A stretch of 64,000 nucleotides of DNA from an uncultured bacterium (GTDB taxonomy: Bacteria > Cyanobacteriota > Vampirovibrionia > Gastranaerophilales > Gastranaerophilaceae). Every line of letters starts with the position of its first letter. Within the stretch, counting starts at the first letter, position 1. The DNA lies in NCBI GenBank assembly GCA_902765215.1, contig CACWZA010000003.1:62001-126000 (forward strand). Direction: 5' to 3'. The notes under the pieces were generated by a model that did no database searches, was not told where the DNA came from, and saw nothing but the letters and a program-made list of their open reading frames with translations. Below, piece by piece: positions 501 through 40,311 of the stretch. The translations under genes and the position numbers were made by a program.

Positions 501-782
501 ATGAAAAAATTATTTATTTTGTTACTAATGATTACAAGTTGCAGCATGGTCTTTGCGGAAGATTTTACAGACAGAATGTTGAGAGAACAAAGAGAATCAT
601 TTAACAGAACTATGGAATATAATCAAATGGTTAACCAAAATCAAAGATTATATGAAATAAAACAGCAAATGGAACAGCAAAATTCTTATAGACCAACTTA
701 TTACAGCAACGACAGCTATCAAAGACCAACTTATGTACAAGATAAACCTTTATATAAGTTTGGAAGTAGTTCAGAATTATAA
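501..782 (+). CDS. Small exported protein, unknown function (93 aa)
   Basis: ATG at 501 is preferred over an upstream in-frame ATG at 459, because AGGAG lies about 10 nt upstream of 501 and the product then starts with a clear signal peptide (MKKLFILLLMITSCSMVFA). Cleavage after VFA by signal peptidase I is the simplest reading. The I-T-S-C segment could also be a weak lipobox, so a lipoprotein is possible. The mature part is short and rich in Gln, Asn, Tyr and Arg, with repeated QRPTY/YRPTYY segments. No known domain. It is followed closely by a membrane protein and a second exported protein, suggesting an envelope-related cargo module. Confidence 0.7.
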   Translation: MKKLFILLLMITSCSMVFAEDFTDRMLREQRESFNRTMEYNQMVNQNQRLYEIKQQMEQQNSYRPTYYSNDSYQRPTYVQDKPLYKFGSSSEL

Positions 783-804
783 ATAAACTAAAAAGGTAGG
801 TAAA

Positions 805-1869
805 ATGTACGAATTTATGGAATTTCTCGGAAATTTTTGCGGGGTAATATTAGACCCTATCAATATAGTTTTACTAATTATCTTAGTAATATTCTTCAAA
901 AGTAAAAGAACAAAACAAAGAGGATTCTTTAAAAATTTAGGAATAATTTTTCTCATTGGTTTTGGAATAAGATTATTATTTTTACCCATAAATATTCATG
1001 CTTCTTCAATGGATTACAGGTATTTTGGAGCAGATACCGCCTTTTTTATTTTATTTTCTAATGCAGTATTTGCAGCACTTATTTATCTTTTTTATTATTT
1101 TTCAAAAATTTTCTTTTATGTCAATATGACGCCAAAGGAAACAAGGGAATATGAAACTAAGAAAAAAAATATTACACTAATTAAAAATTTGGTAGAACGA
1201 TATGAAAATGCTAAGGATTTTGAATGTGCTGATTTTTTATACAGACTTATGATGTTTAGGGATAATAATTATAATTCTATTCAAATTCAAGCATTTTTAA
1301 ACCCTGATGAAAATATTAACTTAATTAAAAGTGCTTTATTAAGTAGTTTGTACAAAAAAATAAAACTACAAAAACTGATAAATCCACAAAATTACACGGC
1401 ACTGGTTTGGTATTATACTTTAAAATCTTATATTGCAGGGGACAATAAAGAACTTATGTATAATTTATGGAAAAATTTAAACCGTGGTTTTGAACTGGCA
1501 AAATCTAAATATATACAAGATAGCAGTAAAAAATTTAATTTTGATAATAGCGGATTTTATCAAATACCTAAAGGAATAGAAGAAAATAAATCTATTAACA
1601 AATTGGATAATAAAACGAATACACTTGTTAAAGATTCAAATAATATAATTGAATTGATAAATTCTAAACTTGAAATAATGAAAGAAAATAATAAAAATTT
1701 AAAAGATAATACTTTTTTAGCTATATGCTATGTGTATGAAGATTTAATACAAGAAGGAAATGAGCAGGATATAAAAAATCTAATAGCTTGTGTGCAAGAA
1801 AACTATCCGGATTTATACGATGACATAATAACGCATATTGCATTAAAATATTCCGGAACTAATTATTAA
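805..1869 (+). CDS. Membrane protein of unknown function (354 aa)
   Basis: The first 110 residues hold three likely membrane segments, roughly residues 13-32 (ending LLIILVIFF), 45-61 (LGIIFLIGFGIRLLFLP) and 75-100 (aromatic-rich, FFILFSNAVFAALIYLFYYF). The remaining 240 residues are Lys/Asn-rich and probably a cytoplasmic helical domain. No catalytic or binding motif was recognised. ATG at 805 follows AAGGTAGG with good spacing. It sits between two exported small proteins with short gaps (22 and 17 bp), so the three are probably one transcript. Base composition is very AT-rich. Function unknown. Confidence 0.7.
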   Translation: MYEFMEFLGNFCGVILDPINIVLLIILVIFFKSKRTKQRGFFKNLGIIFLIGFGIRLLFLPINIHASSMDYRYFGADTAFFILFSNAVFAALIYLFYYFSKIFFYVNMTPKETREYETKKKNITLIKNLVERYENAKDFECADFLYRLMMFRDNNYNSIQIQAFLNPDENINLIKSALLSSLYKKIKLQKLINPQNYTALVWYYTLKSYIAGDNKELMYNLWKNLNRGFELAKSKYIQDSSKKFNFDNSGFYQIPKGIEENKSINKLDNKTNTLVKDSNNIIELINSKLEIMKENNKNLKDNTFLAICYVYEDLIQEGNEQDIKNLIACVQENYPDLYDDIITHIALKYSGTNY

Positions 1870-16439: not shown

Positions 16440-16560
16440 AATTTTGAAATAGAAAAAAGTTTAACAAGGAAAGCATGGTGAAAGTCCATCGCTGGTCCGC
16501 AGCCGTGAAAGTCGGAATACTTGGGAAATTGGGATAATACTTGCGAGACTGAGGAGATTT
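16440..16560 (+). promoter_or_regulatory. Cobalamin (B12) riboswitch upstream of nrdD
   Basis: The 330-nt gap 16233-16567 contains the conserved core of an adenosylcobalamin aptamer. TTTAACAAGGAAAGCATGG matches the TTAATAGGGAA..GGTG segment, then GTGAAAGTCC, CTGGTCCGCAGCCGTGAAAG (consensus CTGTCCCGCAACTGTGAA), and a 3' part with ACTGAGGAGATT before the start codon. The GAGGAG near 16551-16556 is also the likely nrdD ribosome site, so ligand binding could hide it. The outer 5' stem may extend back to about 16390. No exact boundaries can be set by eye. Confidence 0.85.
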
Positions 16561-16567
16561 TAAATTT

Positions 16568-18859
16568 ATGGAAGAGACAACTGCAAAAAATGGCGAAGTT
16601 GTTGGGTTAAACAACATATCGTCCAACGTAACAAATTCAATCAAGGGAGCGACGGTTAAAAAGACCGAGGAAGAATGCTTCGTAAACTCAAATGATGTAT
16701 CAAAGGTTGTGGACATAGGATCAAAACTATCAACCGACAACATCCACATCGTTAAAAAAGACGGGACATTAGAGGACTATGATATTACAAAGGTAGTAAA
16801 GGCGATTAAGAAATCTGCAGCAAGAATGCTTATCGAATTAACGACAGACGAAATTAACAGAATTTGCAACCTTGTAAACAAAAGTGTATTAAATTTGGGT
16901 TACAGCAACATTGAAATTATAAAAATTCACAGCATTGTTGAAAGTGCTTTAGAAGATGTAAACCCAAAAGTAGCAAAGAGCTACAGAGATTACAGAAACT
17001 ACAAAATTGACTTTGTAACTATGCTAGACAAAGTTTACAAAGAAAGTCAAAAGATTATGTATGTCGGAGACAAGGAAAACTCAAACTCTGACTCTACATT
17101 AGTTTCAACAAAACGCTCACTTATCTTCAACCAGTTAAACAAAGAATTGTACAAAAAATTCTTCCTTAATGTTGAAGAATTACAGGCAGCGCGTGACGGT
17201 TACATCTATATCCACGATATGGCAGCAAGACGCGACTCTATGAACTGTTGCTTGTTTGATATAGGGAATGTACTCAAAGGCGGTTTTGAAATGGGTAACC
17301 TTTGGTACAACGAACCTAAATCACTGAGAGTTGCTTTCGATGTAATAGGCGATGTAACAATGGCTGCAGCAGGGCAGCAATACGGTGGTTTCACCTTGCC
17401 GGAAGTTGATAAAGTGCTTGCACCTTATGCAGAAAAAAGTTATCAGACTGCTTACGAAAAATATGTTCTTATGGGTGTAGATTTTGAAAAAGCAAGAGAA
17501 CAGGCACTCAAAGATGTAGAAAGAGAATTTGAACAAGGTTTCCAAGGCTGGGAGTATAAGTTCAATTCCGTAGCATCATCAAGAGGTGATTATCCGTTCA
17601 TCACAGTTACAGCAGGCTTAGGAACGGGTGAATTTGAAAAAATGGCATCTATGATTATGCTTAATGTAAGAAAAGAAGGTCAGGGCAAATCAAGCTGCAA
17701 AAAACCTGTTCTTTTCCCTAAAATAGTTTTCTTATACGATAAGGAACTTCACGGAAAAGGAAAAGAACTAGAAGATGTATTTGAAGCAGGGTTAGAATGT
17801 TCAAGAAAATCAATGTATCCTGACTGGTTATCATTATCAGGTGAAGGTTATGTTGCAAGCATGTACCAGAAATACAAAAAAGTTGTTTCTCCAATGGGTT
17901 GCAGAGCATTCTTATCACCTTGGTTTGAAAGAGGCGGCATGAAACCGGCTGACGAAAACGATATTCCTGTATTTGTCGGCAGATTTAACATTGGTGCTAT
18001 AAGTCTTCACTTGCCTATGATTTATGCTAAGGCTAAAAAAGAAAGCAAAGACTTCTATGAAGTTCTCGATTACTACATGGATATGATCAGAAACCTTCAC
18101 AGAAGAACATTAGATTATCTCGGGGAAATGAGAGCATCTACAAACCCTCTCGCATACTGCGAAGGCGGGTTCTATGGCGGACACCTCGGTTTCCACGATA
18201 AAATCAAACCATTGTTAAAATATACAACAGCATCATTTGGTATCACTGCTCTTAACGAACTTCAGGAAATTCACAACGGCAAATCAATTGCCGAAGACGG
18301 GGAATTTGCTCTTGAAGTTATGAGATATATCAATGATAAAATCAATAAATACAAAGAAGAAGACGGTTACTTATATGCAATTTACGGAACTCCTGCAGAA
18401 AACCTTTGCGGACTTCAAATTCAGCAATTCCGTAAAAAATATGGTATTGTAGAAAATGTATCAGACAGAGGATACATCTCAAACAGTTTCCACTGCCACG
18501 TTTCAGAAGATATCACTCCTATCGAAAAACAAGACCTCGAAAAGAGATTTTGGGACTTGTTAAACGGCGGGAAAATACAGTATGTAAGATACCCGATTTC
18601 GTACAACAAAGAAGCCGTAAAAACATTAATCGAACGCGCAATGGATATGGGATTCTATGAAGGTGTTAATATGTCACTTTCATACTGTGACGATTGCGGA
18701 CACGAAGAATTAGATATGGATGTATGTCCAAAATGCGGCAGCAAAAACCTTACAAAGATTGACAGAATGAACGGTTATCTTTCATATTCTCGTGTTAAAG
18801 GCGATACTCGTCTTAACGAAGCAAAAATGGAAGAAATTAAAGACCGTATTAGTATGTAG
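16568..18859 (+). CDS. nrdD: Anaerobic ribonucleoside-triphosphate reductase (class III)
   Basis: 763 residues. An N-terminal ATP-cone at about 57-145 (IVKKDGTLEDYDITKVVKAI) gives allosteric control. The central barrel has SMNCCLFDIGNVLKGG, and the C-terminus has a Cys4 zinc site (CDDC...CPKC) and the glycyl-radical motif RMNGYL with G736. It reduces ribonucleoside triphosphates to dNTPs under anaerobic conditions after activation by NrdG, encoded just downstream. The first 50 residues form a polar extension before the ATP-cone. ATG 16568 follows the GAGGAG of the upstream cobalamin riboswitch, so expression is expected to fall when B12 is plentiful. Confidence 0.96.
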   Translation: MEETTAKNGEVVGLNNISSNVTNSIKGATVKKTEEECFVNSNDVSKVVDIGSKLSTDNIHIVKKDGTLEDYDITKVVKAIKKSAARMLIELTTDEINRICNLVNKSVLNLGYSNIEIIKIHSIVESALEDVNPKVAKSYRDYRNYKIDFVTMLDKVYKESQKIMYVGDKENSNSDSTLVSTKRSLIFNQLNKELYKKFFLNVEELQAARDGYIYIHDMAARRDSMNCCLFDIGNVLKGGFEMGNLWYNEPKSLRVAFDVIGDVTMAAAGQQYGGFTLPEVDKVLAPYAEKSYQTAYEKYVLMGVDFEKAREQALKDVEREFEQGFQGWEYKFNSVASSRGDYPFITVTAGLGTGEFEKMASMIMLNVRKEGQGKSSCKKPVLFPKIVFLYDKELHGKGKELEDVFEAGLECSRKSMYPDWLSLSGEGYVASMYQKYKKVVSPMGCRAFLSPWFERGGMKPADENDIPVFVGRFNIGAISLHLPMIYAKAKKESKDFYEVLDYYMDMIRNLHRRTLDYLGEMRASTNPLAYCEGGFYGGHLGFHDKIKPLLKYTTASFGITALNELQEIHNGKSIAEDGEFALEVMRYINDKINKYKEEDGYLYAIYGTPAENLCGLQIQQFRKKYGIVENVSDRGYISNSFHCHVSEDITPIEKQDLEKRFWDLLNGGKIQYVRYPISYNKEAVKTLIERAMDMGFYEGVNMSLSYCDDCGHEELDMDVCPKCGSKNLTKIDRMNGYLSYSRVKGDTRLNEAKMEEIKDRISM

Positions 18860-18949: not shown

Positions 18950-19441
18950 ATGAATTATCATAATATAACAAAAGATGATATGCTTAATGGGGACGGTTTG
19001 AGAGTCGTTTTATGGGTTGCAGGCTGTAACCATTGCTGCAAAAACTGTCAAAACCCTGAAACATGGGATGTTGGCGGTGGAATACCATTTGATGAAGATG
19101 CAGAAAAAGAATTATTTGACGATTTAAGCAAACCACATATATCAGGGATAACTTTCAGCGGCGGAGACCCGCTCCACCCGTTTAATCGTTCTGAGGTTTT
19201 CAGACTGATTAACAAATGTGCTTCGGAATACCCTGATAAGACGATTTGGCTCTATACTGGTTACAAATGGGAAGAAATAAAAGACCTTGACGGGGTTGAT
19301 AAGATAGATGTACTTTGTGATGACGAGTTTGTTCAGGAACTGAATGACAACAATATTCAATGGGTTGGAAGTACAAACCAACGAGTTATTGATGTCAAAA
19401 AGACCTTTGAAACAGGGGATGTAGTCTTACACGTTAGTTAG
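18950..19441 (+). CDS. nrdG: Anaerobic ribonucleotide reductase-activating protein (radical SAM)
   Basis: 163 residues. The CxxxCxxC cluster motif is C26-x3-C30-x2-C33 (CNHCCKNCQNPETWD). GITFSGGDPL is the SAM-binding glycine motif, and IWLYTGYKWEEI is typical of NrdG. It uses a 4Fe-4S cluster and SAM to create the glycyl radical on NrdD. ATG 18950 follows GGGAG. The last 4 bp overlap the convergent orphan gene. Confidence 0.95.
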   Translation: MNYHNITKDDMLNGDGLRVVLWVAGCNHCCKNCQNPETWDVGGGIPFDEDAEKELFDDLSKPHISGITFSGGDPLHPFNRSEVFRLINKCASEYPDKTIWLYTGYKWEEIKDLDGVDKIDVLCDDEFVQELNDNNIQWVGSTNQRVIDVKKTFETGDVVLHVS

Positions 19442-26739: not shown

Positions 26740-27458
26740 ACTATATCTCCTATGTAATATATTTTGTTGTTGTCATCTTCTTTTAGTACAAGAGAGCCCT
26801 CGTCCGTAACCCCCGTTGCTACTCCCTGATGTATTTCCCCAAGCACATTTATGGTGATTTCTTTACCTAAAAACATTGCTCGTTTTTCATAGTCATTTTT
26901 TATAAACGGAAACCCATCAGCTATAAATTCATCATATAACAAACAAAATTTTTCTAAAAGTTTTTTGAGGAAAATTTCCTTATTTACGCATGCCCCTATC
27001 TCATTAAAAATCGAGGTTGCGGGCTTATCAATCAGAGCGAGTTTTTCGCTCGTAGTGTTGAGATTCACCCCGATTCCGAGAGCAAGACCAAAGAATTTTC
27101 CGCCGTGAGTTGTACCTTCTGCAAGTATCCCGGCAACTTTTTTCCCGTTTATTAAAACATCATTCGGCCACTTGATTTGGGGGTTAAGGTTATATTCTTC
27201 CTCTAAAAGCATGGATAAAATTACGGATAAATACTGAGTCAGATTCGGAAAGTTTGATATTTCTTTTTCATTTTTTGGTTTTAGAACAATTGTAAGAAAA
27301 AGGTTATCTTCACCCGTATCCATCCATTTGCGCTCCAGTCTGCCTCTGCCTGAGGTTTGCCTTTGGGCATACACAGCAGTCATATGCTCAAGTTGTGACA
27401 TATTCTTTTTGGCATAATCATTTGTGGAATTTATTTCTTCTAAACGGATAGTTTTCAT
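26736..27458 (-). CDS. birA: Biotin--[carboxyl-carrier] ligase (no HTH domain)
   Basis: 240 residues. The family motifs are RQTSGRGRLERKW, FLTIVLKP, IKWPNDVLINGKKVAGILAEG (KWPNDV with the catalytic Lys) and FGLALGIGVNLNT. There is no N-terminal winged-helix, so it is a group I ligase without repressor function. It forms biotinyl-AMP and attaches biotin to carrier lysines. It is the first gene of birA-oadG-oadA-oadB, so the ligase is made with its own substrate, OadA. Confidence 0.94.
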   Translation of the reverse strand: MKTIRLEEINSTNDYAKKNMSQLEHMTAVYAQRQTSGRGRLERKWMDTGEDNLFLTIVLKPKNEKEISNFPNLTQYLSVILSMLLEEEYNLNPQIKWPNDVLINGKKVAGILAEGTTHGGKFFGLALGIGVNLNTTSEKLALIDKPATSIFNEIGACVNKEIFLKKLLEKFCLLYDEFIADGFPFIKNDYEKRAMFLGKEITINVLGEIHQGVATGVTDEGSLVLKEDDNNKIYYIGDIV

Positions 27459-27490
27459 ACATAATATTTTATAATAAAAGCAACAAAAAA

Positions 27491-27513
27491 GAAGGCTGTT
27501 TTATACAGCCTTC
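27491..27513 (-). terminator. Rho-independent terminator after the 27870 gene
   Basis: GAAGGCTGT pairs with ACAGCCTTC (loop TTTAT); on the minus strand it is followed by TTTTTTG. It separates the orphan gene from birA. Confidence 0.8.
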
Positions 27514-27534
27514 CTTTATATAATAACATTTTAA

Positions 27535-27870
27535 TTATGCGTTAATTCCGCCTGATGAAGCACTGCTAACCGCACTAACTGCAGATGATGATTCTGATGA
27601 TGAAGTTTGGCTTGTTGCAGCCTGTGCTTCCGCTACATTAGCAAAACCATAAGATTGAGCCATTTTTTCTGTTGATTTTTGCAGATTCATTAAATCTTCA
27701 ACTGTACCATTCTTATGCTCAATTGGATTTGCTACTTTATTTTCTTTTACGGTATTCTTGGCAATTCTGGTTTCATCATATTCATCAAGTGATGAATTTG
27801 TTTCTTCTGCCTTCAGATTAACCGGAGTAGTACTTGTGAATGCACTATAGTTAATTGCATCTATTTTCAT
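27535..27870 (-). CDS. Hypothetical Ser/Ala-rich protein (111 aa)
   Basis: Excellent ribosome site (AAAAGGAG) before ATG 27870. The N-terminus is MKIDAINYSAFTSTTPVNLK. The middle is acidic and Lys-rich with a helical segment MNLQKSTEKMAQSYGFANVAEAQ. The C-terminal 30 residues are almost only Ser, Ala, Val, Thr and Gly. It resembles small, partly disordered secreted or structural proteins, but no signal peptide is seen. It has its own terminator. Function unknown. Confidence 0.65.
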   Translation of the reverse strand: MKIDAINYSAFTSTTPVNLKAEETNSSLDEYDETRIAKNTVKENKVANPIEHKNGTVEDLMNLQKSTEKMAQSYGFANVAEAQAATSQTSSSESSSAVSAVSSASSGGINA

Positions 27871-28130
27871 TTTAAAAAATCTCCTTTTCGTGTTACATTA
27901 TTGCATACTATTCAAAACATATCAAGATTTTTTTTTGCTACCACAAAACTAAAATATTTTTTATAACAAATTTATATCCGAGGAAATTTCCTAAAATTAC
28001 AAAAACACACCCAACCACAAATATATCAAGAAACCTTAAAATTTGAATGTGGAATATATTTATTATTATATTAACAAATGTAAAATTTTTGACTTTCCAT
28101 GCTCCATGAATTTGGAAAGTGTAGTATACT

Positions 28131-28200
28131 CATGACTATCAACTATCCCAAATCTCCTCCCAAGATTATGAAATACTAGCTGCAGAACGCAGCTTTTTAT
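28131..28200 (+). ncRNA. Candidate small regulatory RNA with CCUCC loop
   Basis: The 352-bp gap between two leftward genes (27871-28222) has a plus-strand terminator AGCTGC-agaac-GCAGCT followed by TTTTATTTT (28178-28200) with no plus-strand gene before it. Upstream is a small hairpin AATCT/AGATT showing CCTCCCA in its loop, plus an ATCCC stretch just before. A -10-like TATACT lies at 28125-28130 and an inverted repeat at 28092-28099/28113-28120. Anti-Shine-Dalgarno C-rich loops are known in sRNAs such as RsaE and cyanobacterial Yfr1. No -35 was recognised, so expression is unproven. Confidence 0.5.
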
Positions 28201-28222
28201 TTTGCCTGTTTTTAGGGAAAAA

Positions 28223-29182
28223 CTACCCAATGAGATACTTCTTCTTTAAATCTGATATTTTAGAATAAGACGCTTCAACGCAATTTCTTATCTCATCATC
28301 AGTTTCAGCAAGCCTTGCGATATCCTCGATAACATTAAGGGTTTCATCAGAGGCATCACGATAGATAAAGAGGTTTATCCCTGCCTTTATTCCCATAACA
28401 CATGCCTGAGTCATCCCGTATTTTGCAACCCCCTTCATAAACATATCGTCAGAAATAACCACACCGTTAAACCCGAGAGTTTTTCTCAAATAATCGATAC
28501 AGTTTTTACTCAGCGATGTCGGGATAACCTCATCATCAAAACACGTGCAATACAGATGAGCAACCATTACCGCCTCAACCCCCTTTTCAATAGCATGCTT
28601 AAAAGGATAAATGTGAGTTTTTTCAAATTCAGGTAAACCAAGATTTATCTGTGGAAGTTCCTTATGTGAGTCCTTATCGGCATCACCGTGCCCCGGGAAA
28701 TGCTTTACAACGGGAATAATTTTCTTTTCCTTATAAACTCTTTGAACAATATCAAACCCTTTAATAACATCCTCAGGGCTGTCAGAAAATGCCCTTTCCC
28801 CGATAATCGGGTTATCAGGGTTAGAATTAACATCCAGACACGGTGCAAAATTCATATTGATACCATACTTTAAAAGTTCATCAAGCATAACCCCTGTCTG
28901 GGTTGTTAAAAACTCCTCACCCGATTCAAACGCATCTTTAGGACTCTTAAACCTCGGATGAAGGTTTTCTGTCCTCTCTACTCTGCCGCCCTCCTGATCA
29001 ATAGACAAAAACGGCGGATATTTCGCCACTGATTTAATATTATTTATAAGCTCGGTAAACTGAGACTCCGAATCTATATCACGGGTAAAGAAGATAACCC
29101 CGCCAAGCCCGTTAGCAAGCTCATAATCAAGATTTTTCCCCGTTCCCGTTATAAACATCTGAAATACTTTATCTCTCAACAT
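28223..29182 (-). CDS. nagZ: Beta-N-acetylhexosaminidase, GH3 family
   Basis: 319 residues, cytoplasmic (no signal peptide). GH3 markers are LSIDQEGGRVERTENL, MNFAPCLDVNSNPDNPIIGERAFS, the KHFPGHGDADKDSH loop that carries the catalytic His-Asp dyad of NagZ, and FNGVVISDDMFM with the nucleophile Asp. It removes N-acetylglucosamine from anhydro-muropeptides in cell-wall recycling. Stands alone between orphan genes. Confidence 0.93.
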   Translation of the reverse strand: MLRDKVFQMFITGTGKNLDYELANGLGGVIFFTRDIDSESQFTELINNIKSVAKYPPFLSIDQEGGRVERTENLHPRFKSPKDAFESGEEFLTTQTGVMLDELLKYGINMNFAPCLDVNSNPDNPIIGERAFSDSPEDVIKGFDIVQRVYKEKKIIPVVKHFPGHGDADKDSHKELPQINLGLPEFEKTHIYPFKHAIEKGVEAVMVAHLYCTCFDDEVIPTSLSKNCIDYLRKTLGFNGVVISDDMFMKGVAKYGMTQACVMGIKAGINLFIYRDASDETLNVIEDIARLAETDDEIRNCVEASYSKISDLKKKYLIG

Positions 29183-39902: not shown

Positions 39903-40311
39903 GGGGATGTTTTGGATTTGACAGGGTGATCGATTAAATCAAGCTGCGAGTCCGAGCGCTGTTCTCGGTTATCAACGAGCAAACCAAATTAAACGCTGAA
40001 AACAACGTTGTAGATGCAACTGCAGCTTTCGCTGCACGTAGAGCTTCAGCTCTTGCTGCCTAATTACGCAGTATGCAACCCGTAAGTTTTCCACCTTGCC
40101 GATGCTTATGGGCCACTATGCAAGGACAAGGCTGTGACAGTAGTAGCAGTCCCAAGATTACTACCGAAGGTTTGTTTATCCGCAAAATAAACTGTGGGTA
40201 AATGTTGGTTAGGTATCTTCCCAAGTTTACCCGAGATAATAAGATGCTACGCCCGTAGATGTTTGCTTTAATCCATTTTGGACGTGGGTTCGAGTCCCAC
40301 CATCTCCACCA
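39903..40311 (+). ncRNA. ssrA: Transfer-messenger RNA
   Basis: 409 nt. The 5' GGGGATG pairs with CATCTCC before ACCA at the 3' end; GGTTCGAGTCCC is the T arm and GGATTTGACAGGG the conserved 5' part. The tag frame starts at GCT 39995 and ends with TAA at 40061-40063, encoding 22 residues that begin AENNVV and end FAARRASALAA. The tag RNA holds two hairpins: TGCAGC/GCTGCA at 40021-40036 and AGAGC/GCTCT at 40040-40053. It rescues stalled ribosomes with SmpB. The mature one-piece form is intact. Confidence 0.97.

Follow-up and report, generated by a model that had tools for sequence, protein, structure and literature searches.

A candidate anti-Shine-Dalgarno small RNA conserved across the Gastranaerophilales, with a probable RNA antagonist in five genera

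Introduction

The DNA analysed here is a stretch of 64,000 nucleotides (the window) from an uncultured member of the Gastranaerophilaceae, in which the gap between two leftward genes ends in a Rho-independent terminator on the opposite strand. What does this orphan plus-strand terminator, present at 28178-28203, terminate? The first-pass annotation proposed a small RNA (sRNA) directed against Shine-Dalgarno (SD) sequences, within 28092-28200, and compared its C-rich motifs with those of Yfr1 in cyanobacteria and RsaE in Firmicutes. On the evidence presented below, which is drawn from sequence comparison and prediction, there is roughly a two-in-three probability that 28137-28203 (+) encodes a trans-acting sRNA of ~64 nt, conserved in the order, that blocks ribosome sites and is antagonised by a second RNA in five genera.

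Organization of the sRNA locus

The proposed sRNA gene (28137..28203, plus strand), which specifies a transcript of ~64 nt and is the unit conserved in the order, is flanked by a 111-aa gene without a Pfam family (27535..27870, minus strand) and a GH3-family, NagZ-like gene (28223..29182, minus strand; Pfam PF00933). The latter adjoins the sRNA only in its own genus among the loci examined. The promoter contains a -10 box, TATACT (28125..28130, plus strand), whose position is kept in relatives, where the box reads TACAAT, TAAAAT or TATCAT; no good match to a -35 element was found in the window. Judging from the position of the -10 box, transcription would start at ~28137, and the transcript would end at ~28200. 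The core of the sRNA, AUCAACUAUCCCAAAUCUCCUCCCAAGAUUAUG (28138-28170, plus strand), contains a first C-rich element, CUAUCCC (28143..28149, plus strand, with AUCCC itself at 28145-28149), which is predicted to be single-stranded and reads AUCCCC in most relatives. It is followed by a small hairpin, AAUCU-CCUCCCA-AGAUU (28151..28167, plus strand), with a C-rich loop on a 5-bp stem, and in the predicted fold both the 5' end of the sRNA and the loop CCUCCCA are unpaired, AAUCU and AGAUU forming the stem. The CCUCCCA loop with AUCCC beside it, the feature that had first suggested an sRNA, is therefore found as described. The invariant core UCUCCUCCC (28153..28161, plus strand) is present in 127 of 128 loci, many of which were gathered via the core motif itself, so that 100% figures, including the conservation of UCUCCUCCC, arise partly by construction. 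The unit closes with the terminator, AGCTGC-AGAAC-GCAGCT-TTTTTATTTT (28178..28203, plus strand), made of a 6-bp stem and a U tail.

The coordinates first given call for one correction. The hairpin at 28092-28120 precedes the likely start, has no counterpart in relatives and is probably not a part of the sRNA; a fold over 28092-28200, which takes in this hairpin, gives a z of about -2.6. Two further RNA features were seen in the window: a hairpin at 27487-27517, lying between one gene that ends at 27535 and another that starts at 27458, is scored as a terminator on either strand, and a tmRNA gene is located at 39903-40311 (+; Rfam RF00023).

Conservation and distribution

A search for the core beside a terminator in related genomes, suggested by the first-pass annotation as a check, gave a clear answer. 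With BLAST, a 126-nt stretch used as query against 58 relatives recovered the core in 56 of them at a loose E-value, and strongly in most genera. With a covariance model of the core, CUAUCCC(C)AAAUCUCCUCCCAAGAUUAU was detected across the order, in 308 of the 383 genomes searched and in 44 of 52 genera, with E-values down to 5e-14; such a recurrence is far above chance. Named matches with the full unit are mostly Candidatus Gastranaerophilales or Melainabacteria, including GWF2_37_15, and in other families of the order CCCAAATCTCCTCCCAA is kept while its surroundings vary. Moreover, 189 distinct stretches fit a loose version of the motif, and a terminator then follows in 128 of these distinct loci, as opposed to 3.6% when the downstream sequence is shuffled. 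The remaining stretches are chance matches in other phyla, antagonist loci (see below) in reverse orientation, and a small number of genuine loci whose long-looped or offset terminators escape a simple terminator scan.

The manner in which the unit varies is also informative. In 30 aligned loci from the BLAST set, which is less affected by ascertainment through the core motif yet also favours the core, 19 columns are invariant, all of them inside the core, and the flanks are variable. The position of the terminator is conserved while its sequence varies between genera, the stems differing widely and staying self-complementary (AGCTGC/GCAGCT, AAGTCGCA/TGTGACTT, AAGCCGT/ACGGCTT and others), and a -10-like hexamer, matching in four or more of its six positions, lies upstream at a near-fixed distance in 123 of the 128 distinct loci. 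Within the core, UCUCCUCC is invariant, and the AAUCU/AGAUU stem around it is broken in some genera and altered in family f3. Loss of CCUCC from conserved hairpins had been named as the outcome that would speak against the sRNA; the opposite is seen, in that CUCCUCC is kept without change and it is the hairpin that differs between loci. The flanking genes, in turn, change between genera among the loci examined: nagZ and mutS, aroQ, a glycosyltransferase and a spermidine-synthase-like gene, an rsgA-like, a deoD-like or a secG-like gene (Pfam was run on the neighbours in the window only, and names elsewhere were read from translations). The core, the promoter position and the terminator are thus kept while the flanking genes change, and the proposal of a stand-alone small RNA gene at this locus is strongly supported by the comparison.

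The sRNA appears to be restricted to the order. Outside it, the covariance model yielded no convincing core, neither in the other class orders nor in photosynthetic cyanobacteria, and the weak matches there, at best E 0.017 in the former and 0.002 in large cyanobacterial genomes, are taken as chance. Several genera of the order, among them g22, g27, g48, g9 and g3 of the main family as well as g52, have no strong match to the model though their genomes are nearly complete, which may reflect loss of the sRNA or its replacement by another RNA. Since it is absent from several genera (e.g. g22, g27 and g48), the sRNA is not essential to the order. Three records labelled Fusobacterium or Brachyspira (L170, L195 and L196) contain the Gastranaerophilales sRNA, so that these MAGs are likely to be mixed or to bear the wrong label. 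Among phage sequences, the sRNA occurs on one viral contig, the 40-kb IMG/VR contig IMGVR_UViG_3300010163_003650, where the full sRNA and its terminator are present (L485, 1823-1841); this may be a provirus edge or misassigned host DNA.

A second RNA complementary to the core

Another small RNA, with a promoter, hairpin and terminator of its own, is encoded in five genera and bears GGGAGGAGAUUUGG, a complement of 14-16 nt to the sRNA core that is interrupted in one genus. Its loci first came up in a pattern scan for the sRNA core, as stretches whose reverse strand reads UUUGGGAGGAGAUUUGG-loop-CCAAAUC before a terminator. A pattern written for this element matched 20 genomes of the order among 286, each of them in g6, g50 or g20, while a reversed control pattern matched 1 genome; the pattern was found in no viral contig. 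A covariance model built for this RNA scored strongly in ~25 genomes of g6, g20 and g50 and led to further copies in g13 and g49, those of g49 having an interrupted complement (GGGAGAGAGAUUUGG or GGGAGAGGAGAUUUGG). There is usually one copy per genome. The promoter T(T/G/A)(C/T)ACA-17-TT(T/A)AAT is found in 19 of 20 loci, mostly as TTCACA or TGTACA and TTTAAT or TTAAAT separated by 17 nt. The only invariant parts of the RNA are the core complement and the closing arm of the hairpin; its loop, flanks and terminator vary. The energy gained by the predicted duplex with the sRNA is -20 to -24 kcal/mol, and shuffled antagonists give means of -5 to -7. By these predictions, the second RNA is probably a sponge for the sRNA, and an independent RNA complementary to the motif, as expected for a C-rich sRNA with a sponge, is present in g6, g20, g50, g13 and, with the interruption, g49.

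Neither the pattern nor the covariance model found the antagonist in the window's own genus, and a weak match to the model in that genus comes from the sRNA's own antisense strand. Elsewhere, in the MAG 'uncultured cyanobacterium SRR7188236_bin.56' (L217, ~700-820, minus strand), TTTTGGGAGGAGATTTTGGGGA is followed by a minus-strand terminator, possibly an antagonist RNA of another design. In addition, CATGC/CATG and TGTAAC words are repeated 20-60 nt upstream of the sRNA, in and around its promoter, in most genera (L017, L018, L020 and many others), and CATG words also precede a part of the antagonist loci, a pattern that might be expected if both RNAs answered to a single transcription factor.

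Possible targets and mode of action

The sRNA is most likely a trans-acting anti-SD regulator, a role read from the complementarity of its core to mRNAs. UCUCCUCCC is complementary to AGGAGA/GGAGG ribosome sites and also to the antagonist that other genera encode. The ribosome sites in the window's genome are of the AAGGAGA type (AAGGAG/AGGAGA), and therefore UCUCCU pairs with them. In the mechanism that we propose, the exposed C-rich elements, AUCCC(C) and UCUCCUCCC, would pair with purine-rich ribosome-binding sites of this type, and the pairing would hold back translation of some mRNAs. In the five genera, the second RNA, with UUGGGAGGAGAUUUGG in its hairpin, would pair with the sRNA core and thereby titrate or destabilise the sRNA.

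Target prediction, for which ~60% of the window's genome and, in one relative, 400 kb were read, supports this in part. Among 1082 genes, pairing at <= -14 kcal/mol was predicted at 155 start codons vs 53 gene interiors, and is thus about three times commoner at start codons. The enrichment is fully explained by UCUCCUCC (CUCC) alone, because equally many targets are predicted when the flanks are shuffled with UCUCCUCC kept. In 135 ortholog pairs from two genera, a comparison of low power given that it spans ~60% of one genome and 400 kb, no conserved regulon was found: start-codon complementarity of at least 8 nt is kept in 0 pairs, no more than with permuted flanks. Hence the anti-SD action first proposed agrees with the motif, the AAGGAGA sites and the complementary antagonist, but the predictions single out no specific target.

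As for individual genes, a 10-nt match at HU in the window's genome is not kept in the relatives read, and HU was set aside. The ribosome site of nrdD (window 16568), GAGGAGATTT(G), is a 10-11 nt complement of the core that persists within the window's genus and also in G023; nrdD of G014 has the 10-nt GGAGGAGATT, and most other genera have not kept the match. These sites make nrdD a weak candidate target. This gene (16568-18859, +) encodes a class III ribonucleotide reductase and is located directly downstream of an AdoCbl-II (B12) riboswitch (16457-16530, +), with a likely nrdG (18950-19441, +) after it. The cobalamin riboswitch beside the own-genus site may constrain that site anyway.

One may argue that the RNA is real and conserved but does not regulate chosen mRNAs, its C-rich core being instead a protein-binding site or sponge, or a global decoy of the ribosome that resembles the anti-SD. 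A core of ~22 nt that is almost unchanged, with no visible conserved regulon and a motif resembling the anti-SD of 16S rRNA, speaks for such a role. Nevertheless, we consider it unlikely, since five genera have an independent RNA in which only the core complement and the closing arm are invariant, which points to RNA-RNA pairing.

Relationship to Yfr1, RsaE/RoxS and Yfr10

The regulatory reading of the sRNA invites comparison with several known RNAs. Yfr1 is 54-69 nt long, has an ultraconserved C-rich motif with CUCCUC and a 3' terminator, and pairs near start codons, and Yfr2, a second sRNA nearly complementary to the Yfr1 motif, blocks Yfr1 (PMC2190773, PMC6778093, PMC6974561). In Bacillales, the C-rich sRNA RoxS/RsaE acts by pairing with ribosome sites and has a sponge of its own, RosA (PMC8216469, PMC9217828). 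In Yfr10 of marine picocyanobacteria, the C-rich motif is displayed in a loop closed by a stem and does not lie between two stems (PMC6778093).

Like Yfr1, the Gastranaerophilales sRNA is short, ~60-70 nt from its inferred start to the U tail, in keeping with the 54-69 nt of Yfr1, and ends in a Rho-independent terminator. One may therefore ask whether Yfr1 was present in the ancestor shared with photosynthetic cyanobacteria and diverged into the present sRNA. The lineages are sisters, and both have a short RNA of similar size with a terminator, a shared CUCCUC and an antagonist (PMC2190773, PMC6778093). However, the Gastranaerophilales core is UCUCCUCCCAA with a second element, AUCCCC, and not the ultraconserved ACUCCUCACAC of Yfr1, which was found in 18 of 18 cyanobacteria and is absent from three Gastranaerophilales (G000, G013 and G028) and from 13 of 15 other Vampirovibrionia; the two occurrences examined in the remaining pair of genomes lack a Yfr1-like fold. 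Moreover, Yfr1 has two stem-loops around 16-20 unpaired nt, and canonical Yfr1 loci recovered from cyanobacteria as a control do show both, whereas the Gastranaerophilales sRNA has only the terminator hairpin and the small motif hairpin, with its core in the loop of the latter, in the 5' part of the RNA, and no 5' hairpin. The genomic settings differ as well: Yfr1 is usually located between guaB and trxA, and the neighbours here are nagZ/mutS and others, depending on the genus. In contrast to Yfr2, the antagonist was found in five genera only and usually occurs once per genome. Canonical Yfr1, with its undecanucleotide and 5' hairpin, was thus not found in the Gastranaerophilales genomes tested, and descent from a diverged Yfr1 appears improbable.

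Similarities to the other RNAs are likewise partial. As in RsaE/RoxS, the C-rich AUCCC and UCUCCUCCC are complementary to AAGGAGA ribosome sites, but there is no match to the curated Rfam family and the phylum is different. The combination of a C-rich sRNA with an RNA bearing the complement of its motif is shared with RoxS/RosA and Yfr1/Yfr2, the duplexes in the present case being predicted ones. As in Yfr10, the C-rich motif is in the loop of a stem, although that of Yfr10 is the Yfr1 undecanucleotide and not the Gastranaerophilales core. The comparison drawn in the first-pass annotation with Yfr1 and RsaE is therefore apt for C-rich motifs complementary to ribosome sites, and fails for the defining features of Yfr1 and for an Rfam match.

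Strand and coding potential

Both window neighbours are leftward and GGGAGGAG, on the minus strand, resembles a strong ribosome site, so that the functional transcript could in principle be on that strand, with GGGAGGAG as its ribosome site or as an element in the 3' UTR of a leftward gene; this is very improbable, since in relatives whose neighbouring genes and orientations differ, it is the plus strand that bears the -10 box and the U tail. A short peptide, for which a 15-codon frame is open in the window (ATG ACT ATC AAC TAT CCC AAA TCT CCT CCC AAG ATT ATG AAA TAC TAG), is scarcely credible, because the ATG precedes the likely transcript start and because the core, owing to single-base insertions within it (ATCCC/ATCCCC, AAATC/AAAATC), occurs in each of the three frames relative to upstream ATGs when loci are compared. 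The core is therefore non-coding. No Rfam match was obtained for the sRNA in the window or for the homologous loci, also at a relaxed threshold. An order-wide core with no Rfam family and no conserved frame thus argues for an undescribed sRNA family.

Implications

The Gastranaerophilales, or 'Melainabacteria', are a common, mostly uncultured gut group, for which no described sRNA was found in the literature or in Rfam. An RNA so conserved likely controls something central in these bacteria. It is conceivable, as a tentative proposal whose chances we put a little below even, that this non-photosynthetic sister group of the cyanobacteria independently built a circuit like that of Yfr1/Yfr2, in which an order-wide, SD-reading sRNA was later joined by a clade-specific antagonist kept by complementarity to the core. 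The presence of the sRNA throughout the order, with a few genera lacking it and five having the antagonist, offers a natural comparison for finding its targets. The two RNAs would add a further C-rich anti-SD sRNA with a dedicated RNA antagonist to the pairs Yfr1/Yfr2 and RoxS/RosA.
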